Source: Centroberyx gerrardi
Lineage: Eukaryota; Chordata; Actinopteri; Beryciformes; Berycidae
Reading direction: 5' to 3'
NCBI RefSeq assembly: GCF_048128805.1
Contig: NC_136010.1
Span: forward strand, 23,530,480 to 23,594,479
DNA: 64,000 nt
Part shown: piece by piece, positions 5,761-57,900 of the stretch
How the letters are laid out: each line of letters opens with the position of its first letter
Position numbering within the stretch: the stretch's first letter is position 1
The notes under the pieces: model-generated
Told to the model about the DNA's origin: nothing
The model's database searches: none
What the model saw: only the letters and a program-made list of their open reading frames with translations
Position numbers and translations under genes: made by a program

Positions 5761-6022
5761 TGACGTTCGATACAACGCGCCCTGAGGAGTCAGAAGCCTC
5801 CCAAAGGGGATCAATAGTCACATAGTTCCTTTATAAAAACGTATGAACTGTTTGAAGCGGACAGTCTGATGTATATTCTGGTCAAATATACCATAGAAGG
5901 CCTCTGGACTTTCCAACCGAGGTAAAAAGATGACTAGGTGCAAGCTGTGCAACAGCACGCCGGTTACGCCGCGAAAAGAAATCAAGCGCTCCCATTGACA
6001 CGAAACGCTGTTCCCAAAATGT

Positions 6023-29836: not shown

Positions 29837-30753
29837 GAAGGAGTACTTGGAACTATTTACAATAACCTACTAGCCTGTGAATGAGAAAAATCAGACAGAA
29901 AAAATATTATTATATTTAATGTACAACACAGAAAACGATATTTTTGGCCAGCAAACCAACACAAGTCGTCCCACTAGTGTCAGAATAATGTAAACCTCAA
30001 TATTCATTATCATAATTAGGATATCAATAATTATGATAAGATCGTTATGAGGGCTTATGTCACATTTGTTATAATTAGCTCTTGCACATTATCCTAATAG
30101 CCTACAAAATGCTAAAACTGCTACAATAAATCCAGTTTGGCATTTATGACATATCATTAGTGGTTCCATTTGCATATTGTTTACACATGATGTAGGGTAT
30201 AAATATTTTAAATAAGTTGTTATGATGTCAAATGAGTACATCACATTTATGTTGGTAGTAAAGAGGTAGTGTCAGCTGAATGCACAGTGTTTCTTGTTGT
30301 ATAGTGACACCTTCTGGCCAATAGCCATACACTGCTGCTGGCTACCTGCCCAGTGTATAAGCTTTATGCACTTCAGATATACAGTCTATATTAAGACAGA
30401 AATTATTGGCTACCATTATAGGCAGTGATGCAATGGAACATAAAAAGGTTTGTAAATTATAACAGTCAGTGATCACCATAAGGCATGACAATCGCCAACA
30501 TAAATAATATCAGTTATATTGTCAGAAAATTATTAATTTATGTTCATTTTTCCTTAAAAGAAAAAATAAATATCATCATAACTTAGATCAGTGTTATACC
30601 TTTTAGTGTGATATGCATTTAAGTCATAAAGAATTATGCCAGCCAAAAAAGGTGGGCAAAGACTGTTTCTATAAATAAATAGGTGGATAAACTTGGTTTT
30701 CCCTTCACTACAACCCTGATTGTAGGCTGTTATTATAAGCTATTATTATTGGG
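29837..30753. other. AT-rich intergenic DNA
   Basis: No gene, conserved motif or clear repeat was recognised. Confidence 0.6.
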
Positions 30754-32158: not shown

Positions 32159-32772
32159 ACTTTTTCTGTTAAAATGTATCCTACATATTAACAACTGAGA
32201 ACCAAAAATGTACCTTAAACTGCAAAGGGAGCAAGTGTTGGTCCCTTAGGTATTGCTGGTTATCTAGCCTAGAAATAGAAAATGATTTTAATGTATTCTA
32301 ATGGCACTATTACTGATAATGTCAGAGAGCCCTGAAGGTGACAATACTTTTGCTGGCTGGTTCCTGGGACAGAAAGACAGCTGTTTGTGGCTCCACAAAA
32401 GAAAAAAACAGACTGAGAAACACTGTACCAAGGTACAATTTTCTCTAAGCATACAAACACACACACACAGACGCCACTCTCCAGACACCCCACGACAAAT
32501 GTGTCCCCTCCCCCACGGCCCCCGTCCTCGCTCCCCTCCTTTTTGGCCTCCCCCCTCGCCTGCTGTGTACACAGCATTGTAGATAAAGTCTGCCTGACCT
32601 CCCACCAGTCTCCCTCCCTCCCCTGCCTCTCACCCCCACTCCACCCCCCCTCCGCAATATGATGACTGGAGCCTCTCTCCAACTACAGGGGGCGCCAGTA
32701 GCTACTCCACTGCCGCCATGCAAAGCTTCTCTCTGCTCCTCACTCCCCCCCCCCCCATCCCCCCCCCACCCC

Positions 32773-32806
<34 letters not shown>

Positions 32807-33794
32807 TCCTCATTCTCGGCCTCTCCCCCTCCCTCCACCTTCAGTACACACAGTACTGCAGATGAGGCCCTCCACAATCCACTAGGCCTCTCTCTCTCTC
32901 TCTCTCTCTTTCTTCCTTTCGCTTGTTCTCTCTCTCTCCACTTATGATGATGTCACCAACTCAGTTTCTGGGGCCCTATTCATGCAACATCCTGGAAAAT
33001 CTGATTCACATTTTGACTGGTAAATTGGAAGCCATTATTTGTAATGTGTCTTGGCATTCTTGGCTCTCATTTCGTAAAGGTGAAACCCTTATACCCCCAG
33101 TTGCCCATTGCCCATATCTGTATATCTATTGCTCATATAACATAACATACATCAGGAACAATCAGTGACGTTATAAGAAGAGTAGGTACTCCGGTCCCAT
33201 ATATAGAGATGTAACCATTGTAGAGATCCCACTTTTTATTGGATGCTTGCTGAGCTGCTGCTGCACTCTTCCTCCATCCTCAAATTGTTTAAAAAAAAAA
33301 AAAAAAGTTATACTCTCTTTACAGCTGCTATAAGTTACAAAGAATATTCTGGTAACTAGTTGGTTGAAAGACAGTTTTCTTACAGTATACTAACATTCAA
33401 GAAAGAATTGTATGCATGAATGGGAATTACCACTGCAGATATCGTATGTCCTTTATTGAGACAGTTTGAAGACTGAGAGTGGTCTAGAATAGGGGAGACA
33501 CAGGAATTACAGTTCCTGAGGTTTTCCATCTTAAGCAAATAAGGGTAAACATCGTCAACGCACTTCGAATTGGTTTCACTCTTGGAAAATGGCTGAGATG
33601 ATCAAGATTGGCATTCCTACTCCTATGGGATTTACCCAATATGGGACTTGGCTTATTATCTTGAAGCAGGCTTTCCATGACTCAATTGGGTTTCGTCTCT
33701 CTCTATGGAAGGACTAACTGCTAGTGCGAGTAGCTACTCCACAATTACTGTTCCTCTCCTTGTTGCCCCAGTCCAGCTCTGCTTGTGGTCCTGC

Positions 33795-33862
33795 AGCTCA
33801 CTGAGTTGAGCATGGCACTAAGACTTTCTGGGTTGGGGGTTCAATTCCCACTTGGGCCACAC
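33795..33862 (+). repeat. tRNA-like SINE head
   Basis: Shows an A-box-like TGAGTTGAGCATGG and a B box GGTTCAATTCC at tRNA-like spacing. It is not a functional tRNA, since no cloverleaf closes. Confidence 0.5.
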
Positions 33863-34460
33863 CAGCTGAAACTGTATGTGCTGATGATAGTGTAAGGTAA
33901 TGTGAGGTTACTTGTCACCTCCTCGTCTCCTCTTCCTCCCCCTTCCTCTCTTTGTGTCTCATCCTTCCCCTCTTTTTCCTCTCGTCCTTCTTTTGGTGTC
34001 TCCCGCTACCCTTCCATTTCCTCTTTCGTCCTCACTGGACTTTGTCTCTTCCCCATCATGGCGGACGTCTCCCCTCTCTGCCTCACTTACAATTGGCCAT
34101 GGCCATGGGTCTCTCCCTCTATCTCTCTCCGTCTCTCTCTCTTTCTCTCTCTCTCTCTCTCCCCCTCTCTCTCTCTTCATCTCAGTTTTCTGTGCCTACT
34201 GAATGATTCAATTTTACCCTATTCTCTCCATGAATCATTTGCACTGTGTGTGTGTGTGTGTGTGTGTGTGTGGTCCACTTGCAGCAATGACAGGAGTATC
34301 TTTTCAGCTGCAGGAGGCGCTAGTAGTGGCCTAGGTCCGCCACCATCTGTCTCCCTCTCTCTCTCTCTCTCGCTCTCTGTCTCTCTTTCTTGCTCCATTC
34401 CCCCGGCCCTCCTCCCCCCTCCGCTGTGTCTAATGCCTTCCTCTCCTTTCCCTCCCTCAA

Positions 34461-34488
34461 CCCCCCCCCCCCCCCCCCCCCCCCCCCC
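34461..34488 (+). repeat. Run of 28 C
   Basis: Uninterrupted poly-C inside the module array. It can form G-quadruplex or i-motif structures and is prone to assembly error. Confidence 0.8.
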
Positions 34489-35083
34489 ACTACATCACCC
34501 AGCACTGCGGACGAGGCCTCTCGCCTCCCCCGCAGTCTGCAAGGCCTTTCTTTAGCCCACCCCCCCACTACCTCCTCTCCTTCCCTCCCTCCCTCTCCCT
34601 CTCTGCTGCTCTCTCTCTCTCCTTCCTCTCCACTGTTTCCTGACATTTTATTCCCCCCCATCTACCCCCCCCCCTCTCTCTCTCTCTCTGTACTGATGTT
34701 GTTATTGTCCCAGTTTTGTGGGGACCCTGATCTATATGACCTCTAGCTACATGCAATATTCAGAGGATGTGAAGTACATGATGAAATCTTGTACCGCAAC
34801 AGCACAGTTCCCCAAACTCCCCCCTCCACCACCCCCACTCACCCCACCCCCCCTCCCAATCTGGAGACTGTTATTATTTCTCATTACCCTGCACCGAGAC
34901 GGAAATCTCACATCTGACTCCTGCCAGTCTCCTACAGGGGGCGCCGTCTGCGACTCCACCGCCGCCATTAGGCTACATTACAAGCTGCTCACGGCCTCCC
35001 CCCCCCCCCCCACCCCCCCCCCTCCTCTCCTCTCTCTCTTATCTGTCTCTCTGTTTCTTCTCAGCTCACCCCCCTCCTCCTCT

Positions 35084-35125
<42 letters not shown>

Positions 35126-35132
35126 TCTTCCT

Positions 35133-35163
<31 letters not shown>

Positions 35164-35984
35164 AGCTCCCCCTCTCTTCATCTCCCTCGCCTCACCCTCC
35201 TCCTCCTCCTCCTCCTCCTCTCCGTCCCCCTTCCTCCCCTCCTCTCCAAAGCATTGCAGATGAGGCTTTCCTTCCTCCACCTTCCTCCTCTCTCCGTCGG
35301 CTATTATAGGCCTTGCCTCACTCTCCCTCCTCCTCCTCCCCCTTTTCTTCTCCCTCCCTCCCTCTGTCTCTCCTCTCTCTCTGCAGCTGGCGTTGGCATT
35401 GTCTTTGGTTTAGTTGGAAGCCCTGATCATCATGCGATCGCCACAAGATCACAGTTCAGGTGGATGCGGGTGGCGGGCCAGGTGGGAGAAAATGCTAAAT
35501 TGACCTGTGGCCGCTTCAGCCAATTAGTCTCTCTCCCATTAAGCTGTTTTGTCTCGGTTGCCCGTACTTCTTTGTGTCTGACAGCAGGGAAAGCACAGAG
35601 GCAAGAGGGTCTCTCTCCCTCTGACTACAGGGGGCGCCAGTCGCTACCCCACCGCCGCCATTGCGTAGCTCCTCTCCTCCACTCCTCACCCCCCCCCTCC
35701 TCTCCTGTCTTCCTCTCTCTCCCCCTCCTCCTTCTCCTCTCCCCGTCTCTCTCTCTCACTCTGTCTCCTTCCCTTTGCCCTCCCTTCCCCCAACAGCCCT
35801 CCTCCTATCCCCGCCTCTCTCTCACTATCTCCCTCTCTCCTCCCCTCCCCTCCCCTCCGCTCCTTCTGTCCCTACCACTTCCTCTCCTCTCTCTCTTTCT
35901 CTCCAGTCCCTCTCTCACTCTGTCTCCCTCTCTTCCCCTTCCCCCTCCCCCTCTCCCTTCCTCTCCTCTTTCTTTCTCATGCTG

Positions 35985-36016
<32 letters not shown>

Positions 36017-36158
36017 CCTCTCTTCCCCTCCCCTTCCTCGGCTCTGCTCCTCCTCTCCCTACCCCTTCCTCTCCTCCCTTTCGCTCCCGTCTCTCTCTCT
36101 TTCTCTGACTCCCTTTTCCCACTCCTCCCCTCCCCCCAGCTCCCCACCCCTTCCCCTC

Positions 36159-36192
<34 letters not shown>

Positions 36193-36402
36193 CCCTCCCC
36201 TCCCCCCTTTGAAAGGCTGTTAAGCGCTCCTTCTGCACACAGCACTGCAGATGAGGCCTCCGCCTCCCCCACAGTCTGCCAGGCCTCTCCTCCAGCCTCC
36301 CCCACCACTCCTTCCCTCCCTCCATCCTACCCTTCCTCCCTTCCTCGCTCGCTTGCTCGCTCCTTACAACAGCATAGCAACACTGAGTAGCCAGCCAGGG
36401 AG

Positions 36403-45472: not shown

Positions 45473-45562
<90 letters not shown>

Positions 45563-47605
45563 ACACACCCTCGCCACTTCCCCTCTCTCCCTCCCCTTTC
45601 TGCTTCCTCCCATTGCTTGTAGATGGCGCTAGAGAGGAGGGCTGCCTCCATTATGTAAGCCTCCCTCTACTCTGCCTGCCCCCTTTTTCTCCCTGCCTCG
45701 CAATGCAATCACAGAATGGCGCCTCCTATTGAGTCAGCAGCAGCCTCTACAATATGTCTGCAGTGGAGGGGGAGGGGAGGGGGAGGAGAGGGGAGGGAGG
45801 GATGTTGGAAGGGAGGAAGGGGAGGGACAGAAGCAGAGAGATGAGGGAAGGGGGAGGGGAGGGTGAGTGAGTGAGAGAGAGAGGATGAGGAGAAAGGGAG
45901 GGGGAGTGAGGGAGCTGGGAGGAAAAGGAGAGAGAGGGAGGGGAGGGGAAGGGGAGCGAGTGAGGGTAGAAGGAGTGAGGAGATGAGAGGAAAGGAGAGG
46001 ACAGAGAGCGAGGGAAGTGGAGGGGGGAAGGGGAAGGGGAGGGGGAGGCAGGGAGGGCGGACAGACAGGCTTGGAGGAGAGGGAGGGTGAGGGAGAGAGG
46101 GAAGAGGGGGAGGGGAGGCAGAGAGAGAGAGAGAGAGAGAGAGCGGGAGGAAGAGAGAGAGAGAAAGGAAGAGGGTGAGAGAAGGAGGGGGGTGATGAAG
46201 GAATGGATAGGCAAGGAGGGGAGGGGGGTGGAAGGAAGGAAAGGAGAGAAAAAAGCCAAGGAGAGACTGAGTAGGAGGAAAGGTAGGGAGAGAAGGAAGG
46301 AGTGAGAGGAAAGGCAAGAGGAGACTGCTCTGTGCTGGCAGAAAACTGTTTTTCCCCCTCCACTGTGGAAAAAAGGAGAAGAAATGAAGGCCTACACACC
46401 TTTAACTACCCCAACCAAAGCTTTCCTCGTGCTCACTCACTCCTCCACAATAACCTATGCACTTGTGACCCTGTGATCAATACTGTTTACAGTTATCCTT
46501 CAAGGTGTAGTCATCAATATTTGTTGAGGGGAAAGGCTACTGGTGACATCAAAAACATTCACTTTGACTCCAGATACCAGAAAAGTTTGGGATGCTCAAA
46601 ATGAGCTGCCTGTTAGGGACTGGATGCAACGCAATCAACGTGCCTTTTCACACCTGGGTTGGTTGTGTCACTGGACAGGAGCACCTGTCAGTAGCCATTA
46701 GCCATAACGAAAAGATGTGGAGGAGTGTGTGTGTGTGTGTCTCGGGGGTGGTCGTGGTTCATGATGATCTGCCACTTGCCTTGACCAGCTGACATCCAGG
46801 TTTCCGCCCCCCACCTCCCCCCGGATCAAACGTGAGGTGTGAGCGCATCACGACCCCGGTGTCACCTGCCCGCTGATGTAGTTTTTGAACTCTGATCACA
46901 TTATGATCACCTTTGCTGGTTTGATTATTTTAAGAAAACTAACGCCAATTAACCGGCGGCTATCTGAACTGTCACCTCGTGTTATAAACAATGATTATGA
47001 ATTGATCGGAGGCGTTTGTTCAATACAAAACTCTCACTGTAAGCTAATCTGGACTTTCTACATTCGCATTAGCAATTTTTTTGCAATGCAAATGTTAGCA
47101 AGATATGTCATCATAGCCTTAGCTACCGGCACAACGCTAACTGCCATACCATACAGTCCTCGTGGGTCTGAATCTGATCTTTAATCAACATCTGGCAGTA
47201 TCCGGATCAATAGCTTTGGTACGGAGCTGCTGCCACTGACAAAGAAGGGGAACACACCGTACTAGGTTAGCATGCTAAGCTTGCTAACTCGCACCAACAA
47301 CATGGGCTTATCAAGACTGGTTTTGCCGTTTCTAACCTTGGTTTTTCCACAACAAACCACAACAAAGGATAACTGCCCGAGTCCCATTTTGCCAAGACAG
47401 ATATGGAGAAACCTACAGGAGAAGTCATTCAACTTGAGATTATTTTGAACCCCTCTGACTTATAGAAATATAGCTATCATGACAGCCAAGTTTAGCTTTA
47501 GTTCATCGCCAACCATCATCGCAGCTAGCGAAAGCTAACAGCGAACTAACGTCAACGTTAGCTTGCTTTTAACGTTATGCCCAATAATATGACAGACAAG
47601 TTTAC
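44110..47605 (-). other. ADNP 5' intron
   Basis: Contains a (GA)n tract, purine-rich low-complexity DNA at about 45760-46330, and a module-A-like word at 45619-45652. A cluster of GCTAAC and ACGTTAG words lies at about 47090-47580. Other 5'UTR exons could be hidden here. Confidence 0.55.
45476..45559. repeat. (GA)n microsatellite
   Basis: About 42 GA units running into a short (AC)n. The Arg-Glu and Ser-Leu ORFs across it are artefacts. Confidence 0.92.
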
Positions 47606-54942: not shown

Positions 54943-57900
54943 CTGTGGGAAAAGAAGAAGAAACATAACAATCAAATAACAATTTTATGACCTATTTCAG
55001 TGAACACTGCCACCAGCCATACAGTAGATTCTATGTAAAACTCCTGTGAAATGTTGGAATATTATAAGTGTTTTTGCATTTTTGTGAACAGACAATATTT
55101 AATGATACAAATAATACAATTGCATATTCCTCTGTATTACTGTTGAGAATTTATTTTATATTTCATCATATATAAAATAGCATTTAGAAGCAAAGTGAAC
55201 CGACAGTAAATGCAGGGAGCCTCTGTCTGCAGCTGTTATTTTGGTCAAACACACTTGATAAAGGAAAAATGAGGGGAGAAAAAATAGGTCAGATAAAGTT
55301 CCCTTATCCCCGATTCCTGTGACATTCTATTGTTTAATAGGAGTGTAAGGCTTTTACAGCTTAACTCTTTCTTCTTGCTTCGAAGTGTTCCAGGGATCCA
55401 GTTTTCCTCTTAGAAAACTTTATGCCAATGAGATTTGGATAGACCCGGATCAGCGTACTGTAATATTCGCGGGCCTCGTGTGTGAAAGGGGTATAATTTG
55501 AACCAGCGGCCCATTCCCAGCAGCTTACCTGTTTGCTGTGGGACTCTGTGGCAGCCTCCACTGCTGTCACACACACCCGGGGGTCCGATCTCGCCTGGCT
55601 GGCCGGCAGGTCCGGAGATCCCTGGGGGTCCTGACTTACCCTCATCCCCCCTGGGACCTGGGACTCCCAGCTTGGACTCACCTGGAGGACCTGCAGAAAC
55701 ACACACACAAACACACACACATAGATACACATGCACAAACACATAATAAGCCCTATAAACACCCTACAATCTCATGATCTATGCTTCAACTTGATTACTT
55801 GTATGGCGTTTCTGCCATAGTAGCCGCTAATATTCCAGCAGTGCAATGAAACAGATGATATGAAGAGGTACCTGCAAATCCTTTGACCCCCTGGGGCCCC
55901 TGGACATTGGTCCCCGAATCACCTTTGTCCCCTAGCATACCTCTTCTTCCTGGAGAGAAGAGAAGGAAGCAAAATTAAAAGCTTATTATTGTTGTCCCTA
56001 AAAATCAGTAGCTGAGTACCTTTAGAATTAGTCAAGGCATTTTTATCAAGTGATGCGTCAAGTATTAGAAACCATGTATGTAGTCTGGATAGAGTCTGAC
56101 CCTGTTCTCCTGGATACGCAGCCTTCCCAGGTCTCCCCCTTGTGCCCAGTCGGCCCTGGCTGCCCCTGGGGCCAGGCGGGCCCTTGCCCCCCGGTATACC
56201 AGGCTCTCCTGGGGGCCCCACTGGCTCCTCAATAGGAGCCGGTTTACGACTCATCTCATTTATGAACATGTCCAGCTTCAACACCTCCTCTGAAAAACAC
56301 ACACAGCACTGGATAAAGTGTGAGTCAGAGAATGTGTATGTGTTTCTGACTGGCACAGAGTAAATGGCTGAATAAGCGAGTAAGTGTGGAAACGAGGAAC
56401 ATATACAGTTGTAGAGAGAGAGAGAAAGAGAGAGAGAGAGAGTACTTACTATGCACTAGTTGCTCACAGGCTTGTGTTACTAACTGGTAGATCATGGCCA
56501 TGGACTGGGGTTCCCCCTGTAACACATCAGTGGAGTCACATCAACCAGAGTTTAAATTAAAGCCATTCAATGTCTATTTTTTTTTTAATTTGTTGATGAT
56601 CTCACTGATGTTTCGGCACCCTACTGTAACACAGTGAATTTGACTGTAAAACTGTGACCCACCTTCTCTCCTCTTTCTCCCTTATTCCCTGGCAGACCCT
56701 GTAAGTGGAAACAGATACAAGTGCGATAAGTAAACACATGTGAAGACAAGATATGACAAATGTCGCTGTTTGTCCCTCTGGTCTTACCGTAGGTCCCACA
56801 GGCCCCAGGGGGCCCCTCTCCCCTAGAGGCCCCGGGTGTCCTGGCATTCCCTGGAAACCCTGTACACACGTGAGGATGGATGGATGGATGGATGGATGGA
56901 TGGATGGGTAGGCAAGCAGACAAGCAACATAATGGATGGATAGACAGGTGAACGAATGGACAGACATGGAAAGTCATAAAGTAAAGAAGGAGAATCATAA
57001 GCAAACATTACTATGCTTTGTTATTAACACTATCACTACTGGGAATCATGTAAAATTCCATGACTTTTCCATGCCGTTCCATAACTAAGTCAGAGCACTT
57101 CTATGACTCAAAAATGTCCTTCCTTTCTGGTTTGTTAAAGTTGCTTTTCTAAAGGGGAGATCAGTCTGGTTTCCACTACAGCTGGGCGTGCTGTGGAGAA
57201 AACCCAGCTGAAAACCCCCATCTAATGCAACGAATGTGTGAAACGAGCTGTAAAATACATTCTGGTATATTCCTGTGACGTGACCCAGTTATAAAATAAC
57301 CTGATATTCCCTGATTTCCCCAGAGAATTTATCAATTTCCCTGACTTTCCCTGTCTGGAACACACCTTTCAAAATCCCATGACCGGTGGGAGCCCTGAGA
57401 TTCATATCACATCGAACAAATGAGAGTTCAGTTAATTGGCACATATATAATGAACTTATATTTGAGAAATTTCTAATAAAATCTTTAGCTTGCAGTCTTA
57501 CCCTGGATCCAGTAAGGCCTGGTGCACCGATGTTCCCTTCAACGCCCCTAATGCCCTGCAAAATACATCGCAGAGAGATGAGGAGAGACAAGAGAAAATG
57601 AGGGAGGGGGGGGTGGGGGGGGTGGTATGAAGAATAGGTAACAGATATTGTGTTATATGGGCTGGGACCAGACAGCTCACCTTGGGGCCTGGAATCCCTA
57701 TTTCCCCTTTTGGACCGGGAGGACCAGGTAAACCCTAGAGAGAAAGAGAGAGAAAGAGAGAAATAACGAGCGTGATAAGGAGAGCGTGTCACGGGGAAGT
57801 CAAAAAGAGAGCGATAAGAGACAGAAAGATGGGCGAACAGACAGCAGTACAGTGAAGAAGATCAACAATTTCAGCTTTTTGTGTTTTCCCTGCTAATTCC

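Follow-up and report, generated by a model that had tools for sequence, protein, structure and literature searches.

The DXZ4, FIRRE and ICCE repeats of mammals are built from units that each carry paired CTCF and YY1 sites, and these arrays are tied to X inactivation, with their use apart from it described as open (PMC6985041). The conservation of DXZ4 across mammals is limited to an internal promoter element with the CTCF/YY1 sites (PMC6985041), given elsewhere as the CTCF motif and 13 bp (PMC3491370). Moreover, regions co-bound by CTCF and YY1 in primates show higher conservation than those bound by one of the two factors alone (PMC4056453), and 70% of the species-specific CTCF gains in Mus match the orientation of the conserved sites of the cluster (PMC6945661). 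Here, an array of two alternating modules (A, with CTCF-like and YY1-like motifs, and B, with AGGCC-type boxes) is described in a 64,000-nt stretch of the Centroberyx gerrardi genome (NC_136010.1, 23,530,480 to 23,594,479; hereafter, the window), where it occupies a pyrimidine-rich block at 32.6–36.3 kb, between the start of PARD6B and the 3′ end of ADNP. What the array shares with the mammalian repeats is a unit, present several times, in which a CTCF site is paired with a YY1 site; in the fish, these sites are motif-like only. In contrast, the mammalian repeats lie on the X chromosome and have shown CTCF/YY1 binding, with 3-kb, CpG-rich units in DXZ4, while the fish array comprises four units in 3.6 kb, carries the extra module B and is known by motif only, and its CpG content is low (observed/expected ratio of 0.32), unlike that of the DXZ4 unit.

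Within the block, four copies of module A and four of module B, all on the plus strand, alternated strictly across 3.6 kb, bearing out the four-fold alternation claimed in a preliminary description of this DNA. The four units consisted of A1 (32685..32719) and B1 (32847..32889), A2 (34310..34346) and B2 (34496..34547), A3 (34934..34968) and B3 (35245..35313), and A4 (35627..35661) and B4 (36236..36286), with B cores starting at 32857, 34506, 35255 and 36246. The A-to-B distances were 172, 196, 321 and 619 nt, and those from B to the next A were 1453, 428 and 372 nt. Module A had been given as 37 nt long; its pattern of 12 + 15 + 8 nt adds up to 35, and the longer figure holds if a shared upstream CT is counted. 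As for the near-identity of module B at 34501 and 36241, the exact 17-mer GCACTGCAGATGAGGCC occurred once in the window (36242) and the copy at 34501 had two changes. In order-2 Markov simulations (300 runs for the block and 20 for the window), neither a loose A nor a B core appeared. Furthermore, profiles built from these same copies recovered all four A modules (E between 1.1e−10 and 3.5e−7) and all four B modules (E between 4e−14 and 8.4e−11) in the window, and the same search gave no further convincing copy there, the best other matches having E of 0.52 for A (48382) and 0.17 for B (32569). The array is real, with a hint of constraint.

A search of the whole genome (779 Mb) for the strict A pattern gave three matches, all of them inside the block, versus none for the reversed pattern used as control; this search covered the strict pattern only, diverged A copies being beyond its reach. 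The 18-nt core of module B, allowing up to one mismatch, had 32 matches versus four for its reversed control, and four of the seven exact cores were those of the block. A total of 20 B-core loci were examined (the four of the block and 16 outside it, leaving out 12 further one-mismatch matches), and none of the 16 outside loci had a second AGGCCT box within 100 nt on the correct strand: locus L036 had AGGCCT as its first box and not as a second one, and AGGCYY was found at offset 33 in locus L037, where the first box was absent. The pyrimidine share around the outside loci was 0.42–0.58, versus 0.66–0.76 at the loci of the block. Moreover, a profile search of background samples totalling 200 kb yielded no convincing A or B (best E of 3.2 and 2.1, respectively). 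A dispersed transposon or satellite family, one of the outcomes that the preliminary description had named as speaking against a conserved boundary role, was therefore not supported, given the confinement of the strict A pattern to the block and the lack of a second box in the outside B loci. As far as these searches reach, the array seems to be a local repeat, a term defined for Firre and applied to sequences that recur discontinuously in one locus and not elsewhere (PMC4820808). The strict A pattern resembles the Firre repeats in recurring at one locus of the searched genome, although the fish array is not known as part of a long non-coding RNA (lncRNA). Among the papers listed by a literature search, none dealt with this intergenic array, which is no proof of absence.

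The motif labels given earlier to module A, CTCF-like and YY1-like, were retained in a qualified form. Using a CTCF matrix, moderate scores were obtained on the plus strand for A1 (13.5 bits), A2 (12.7 bits), A3 (16.7 bits) and A4 (14.6 bits), with three of the four copies lacking the C of matrix position 4. YY1 was judged by a string check only: the string GCCGCCAT was exact in three copies and had one change in A2. This string occurred four times in the window, three of them within A, and corresponds to ATGGCGGC on the minus strand, which is that of PARD6B. The distance between the CTCF-type and YY1-type parts was exactly 15 nt in three of the four copies. The strict copies (A1, A3 and A4) were pairwise identical at 31–34 of 37 positions (84–92%), and the seven columns that varied among them all fell outside the 14-nt CTCF-like and 8-nt YY1-like arms. 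Furthermore, column entropy was negatively correlated with the information content of the CTCF matrix, both with four copies (Spearman −0.56; 20 of 2000 permutations as low) and with three (−0.51; 38 of 2000).

Four CTCF-like sites of at least 12.7 bits were found on one strand within 3 kb, versus a maximum of two per 4 kb in the background (20 stretches, two strands each), but this clustering is less telling because the four A copies are duplicates rather than independent sites. Such an arrangement recalls the clusters of same-orientation CTCF sites at the borders of topologically associating domains, in that several CTCF-like sites face one way; it differs from them in that CTCF binding data exist for those clusters, while the sites of the block are motifs only, were copied by duplication and have a partner motif. 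In addition, a stronger CTCF-like site (19.2 bits) was located on the minus strand at 30302..30320, at a distance of about 1 kb from the start codon of PARD6B, on its upstream side. The expected number of sites like this one was 0.05 per window in 20 simulations, and two were found in the 200 kb of background (0.64 per 64 kb). Judging by the motifs alone, this site and the plus-strand sites at 32.7–35.6 kb are divergently arranged.

Each copy of module B holds two AGGC-type boxes, and eight of the nine plus-strand AGGCYY sequences of the block fall in this module. The final box was AGGCCT in all four copies, and the first one was AGGCCT in two of them and AGGCCC or AGGCTT in the others. In particular, two AGGCCT boxes were separated by 28 nt in B2 and by 27 nt in B4, B3 had AGGCTT followed by AGGCCT after a longer gap, and the final AGGCCT of B1 appeared as CTAGGCCT, which corresponds to the full ZFX 8-mer read from the minus strand. 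Overall, AGGCCT was found six times in the block, versus a mean of 1.25 and a maximum of five in the 300 simulations. This hexamer is the core described for ZFX and ZNF711, and the enrichment of the ZFX motif is higher at CpG-island promoters than at others (PMC5848610). The likeness to ZFX/ZNF711 sites lies in this core, present here in modules with two AGGC-type boxes. However, the full ZFX 8-mer AGGCCTAG was found in one B copy (B1, minus strand) and was absent from the other three, and the block is not CpG-rich, so the CpG-island promoter context of ZFX-family sites is lacking here.

The reading that we favour, tentatively and at somewhat less than an even chance, is that of a locally duplicated regulatory element of the CTCF/YY1 type, possibly acting as a boundary or a promoter tether by analogy with the DXZ4, FIRRE and ICCE repeats. 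Each unit consists of module A with its CTCF-type and YY1-type sites, a pyrimidine simple-repeat stretch and module B with its two AGGCC-type boxes. Module A would recruit CTCF, perhaps together with YY1, and the four weak A sites facing one way could form, with the stronger opposite-facing site at 30302, a joint cohesin stop that would either separate the PARD6B promoter from ADNP or tether that promoter. Module B, in turn, might recruit an activator of the ZFX family or another zinc-finger protein, and selection would keep these half-sites while the surrounding simple repeats and insertions keep changing. The insulator role put forward in the preliminary description is a reasonable inference. 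If bound, this small fish array would be a handy test of paired, repeated sites without X inactivation. A far more specific proposal, in which the block would be a compact counterpart of DXZ4 on an ordinary chromosome of a fish, made of a locally amplified, fixed-spacing CTCF/YY1 and ZFX-type element at a pard6b/adnp boundary with ADNP competing for binding, appears very improbable.

Several observations weigh against such a duplicated CTCF/YY1-type element. The CTCF scores of module A are ordinary, as 17 sites of at least 12.6 bits were found in the 200 kb of background (5.4 per 64 kb), the simulations giving 2.35 sites per 64 kb at 12.7 bits. Matrix position 4 (88% C, 1.27 bits) was occupied by C in A3 only, and the CpG observed/expected ratio of the block was lower than that of the window (0.32 vs. 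0.41); an insulator role gains nothing from scores this middling, from the absence of that C or from the low CpG ratio. The diverged copy A2 (GCAGGAGGCGCT ... GCCACCAT) was identical to the other copies at only 23–26 of 37 positions, and the alignment between A2 and A3 comprised low-complexity sequence, the module not being recovered. Moreover, the probability of the invariant arms, 0.0006 for these particular arms, rose to 0.035 when any arm placement was allowed, and eight of 121 other placements of the matrix fitted better, the best being offset by a single base and some lying in the reverse orientation; a conserved core is thus shown rather than a CTCF-specific pattern. No array was found in the 20 kb downstream of the ADNP paralogue on contig C5 (no A at E ≤10; best B, E of 0.64), and neither the four PARD6B peptide motifs nor EVKSK were found in the same 20 kb; this absence says little about the age of the array because synteny was not shown there. 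Finally, the cited account of primate co-bound regions describes no consistent spacing between CTCF and YY1 motifs (PMC4056453).

A serious alternative, although on the unlikely side, is that the array is neutral debris with no present function, in which unequal exchange among pyrimidine tracts multiplied an A–B unit and the microsatellites then changed faster than the modules. Duplication is evident from the flanks: an AGCT-CTC stretch followed by a C-run is common to the downstream side of A1, A3 and A4, and an ATGAC-GGAG upstream flank is common to A1 and A2, which indicates that the units descended from one another by duplication. In addition, B2 and B4 aligned over about 160 nt, largely pyrimidine. 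The gaps within units also fit this view, since they are almost all simple repeat (only 11, 13, 28 and 39 nt unmasked). It had been claimed that everything between the modules is simple repeat, which nearly holds for these A-to-B gaps and fails between units, where 1,443 of 2,086 nt were not simple repeat (1,019 of 1,401, 212 of 379 and 212 of 306). The modest significance of the invariant arms once any placement is allowed and the lack of CTCF specificity in the matrix test are likewise in keeping with neutrality.

Nevertheless, the non-simple spacers were dissimilar, in spite of the high identity of the strict modules. Among the three of them and the two outer flanks, none of the 10 comparisons beat all 100 shuffles, and the score of the closest one (B2–A3 vs. 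B3–A4) was reached by three of the 100. A pure duplication would therefore need three separate insertions or the copying of units free of spacers, and a neutral origin has also to account for the invariant stretches coinciding with two motif-like arms. Either the units were copied without spacers, with later insertions, or an old duplication took place of which the modules alone were kept. One of the spacers contains a tRNA-like stretch on the plus strand (33787..33859; 24.9 bits, below the 29-bit Rfam gathering score, E of 0.13), which had one weak partial match in the background (73% over 67 nt) and in which parts resembling A and B boxes were seen by eye. This stretch is perhaps the head or a piece of a short interspersed nuclear element, and its presence in a spacer speaks for a degree of later insertion at the least.

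An unlikely explanation, compared with the duplicated CTCF/YY1-type element, is that the array acts as a promoter or enhancer of PARD6B or of a lncRNA missing from the annotation, with every unit providing an alternative start or a further enhancer copy. The YY1-type string in the PARD6B orientation and the AGGCCT boxes are promoter-type elements, and the enrichment of the ZFX motif at CpG-island promoters (PMC5848610) points the same way. Furthermore, the R0 local repeat of FIRRE binds YY1 as well as CTCF, the latter despite lacking a canonical motif, and acts as an enhancer in reporters (PMC4820808), so that the middling motif scores of module A are compatible with binding and the enhancer reading is a genuine competitor. 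However, the CpG ratio in the 500-nt bins with modules was low (0.31–0.43), the CpG-richer bin (0.73) being found at exon 1 of PARD6B, and no Rfam family reached its gathering score in the window, where three matches below this threshold were found at 29.5–39.5 kb with E ≤1. An RNA gene was rejected on this last result and on the absence of tRNA predictions by ARAGORN at 30–39 kb.

Module A could also be a site for a different zinc-finger protein whose motif resembles that of CTCF, namely INSM1 or, in an autoregulatory manner beside its own gene, ADNP, although we consider this very doubtful. In embryonic stem cells, ADNP is reported to limit the occupancy of CTCF (PMC13061322), and the absence of the position-4 C from three of the four copies would suit a motif other than that of CTCF. 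Module A presumably resembles the INSM1 and ADNP motifs. By eye, the ADNP motif fits at 10 of 12 positions only, and no result obtained here separates INSM1 or ADNP from CTCF. Other candidates, considered by eye only, were discarded: module B as a REST site, an E-box or a microRNA, module A as a splice acceptor formed by the tract and CAG (no donors seen), and the modules as coding exons, for which a shared reading frame was not seen.

Apart from the eight modules, two possible decayed copies on the plus strand gave non-significant nhmmer matches, namely a B-like copy ahead of A1 (32568..32601; E of 0.17) and an A-like one, which would be a fifth A (33725..33742; E of 5.6), having AGTAGCTACTCCAC in common with A1. 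Inspection by eye showed that 14 nt of the latter copy match the central part of A1 exactly.

Both genes flanking the block are encoded on the minus strand, and the window is part of contig C14 (32 Mb) of the assembly. The PARD6B start codon lies near 29.24 kb, so that the block is located about 3.4–7 kb upstream of it, and Pfam domains were found in the frames at 27.0–27.6 kb (PB1) and 9.9–11.0 kb (PDZ), with PAR6 beta as the top PDB match (E of 1.2e−92). The frame of the last ADNP exon spans 39.4–42.6 kb (Pfam ADNP_N, 1110 bits), with additional matches around 42.7 and 44.0 kb, and the block lies about 3–7 kb past the end of this frame. Genome-wide, ADNP_N matched four loci, on contigs C14 and C5 and, more weakly, on C19 and C12, a number that would suit a teleost. 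A strong CTCF-like site (L046:3904, minus strand, 23.4 bits) was detected about 15 kb past the last ADNP_N match of the paralogue on C5. Regarding the window, its top CTCF matrix scores were found at 6020 (plus strand, 22.5 bits) and 9352 (minus strand, 21.0 bits), a convergent pair 3.3 kb apart just past the frame of the last PARD6B exon. Upstream of the ADNP coding stretches, the region 45476–46400 was purine-rich on the plus strand, with an 84-nt pure purine run at 45476, as a mirror of the pyrimidine block. Finally, collagen-like Gly-X-Y frames were observed on the minus strand at 55919–57861 in the translations of the open reading frames.

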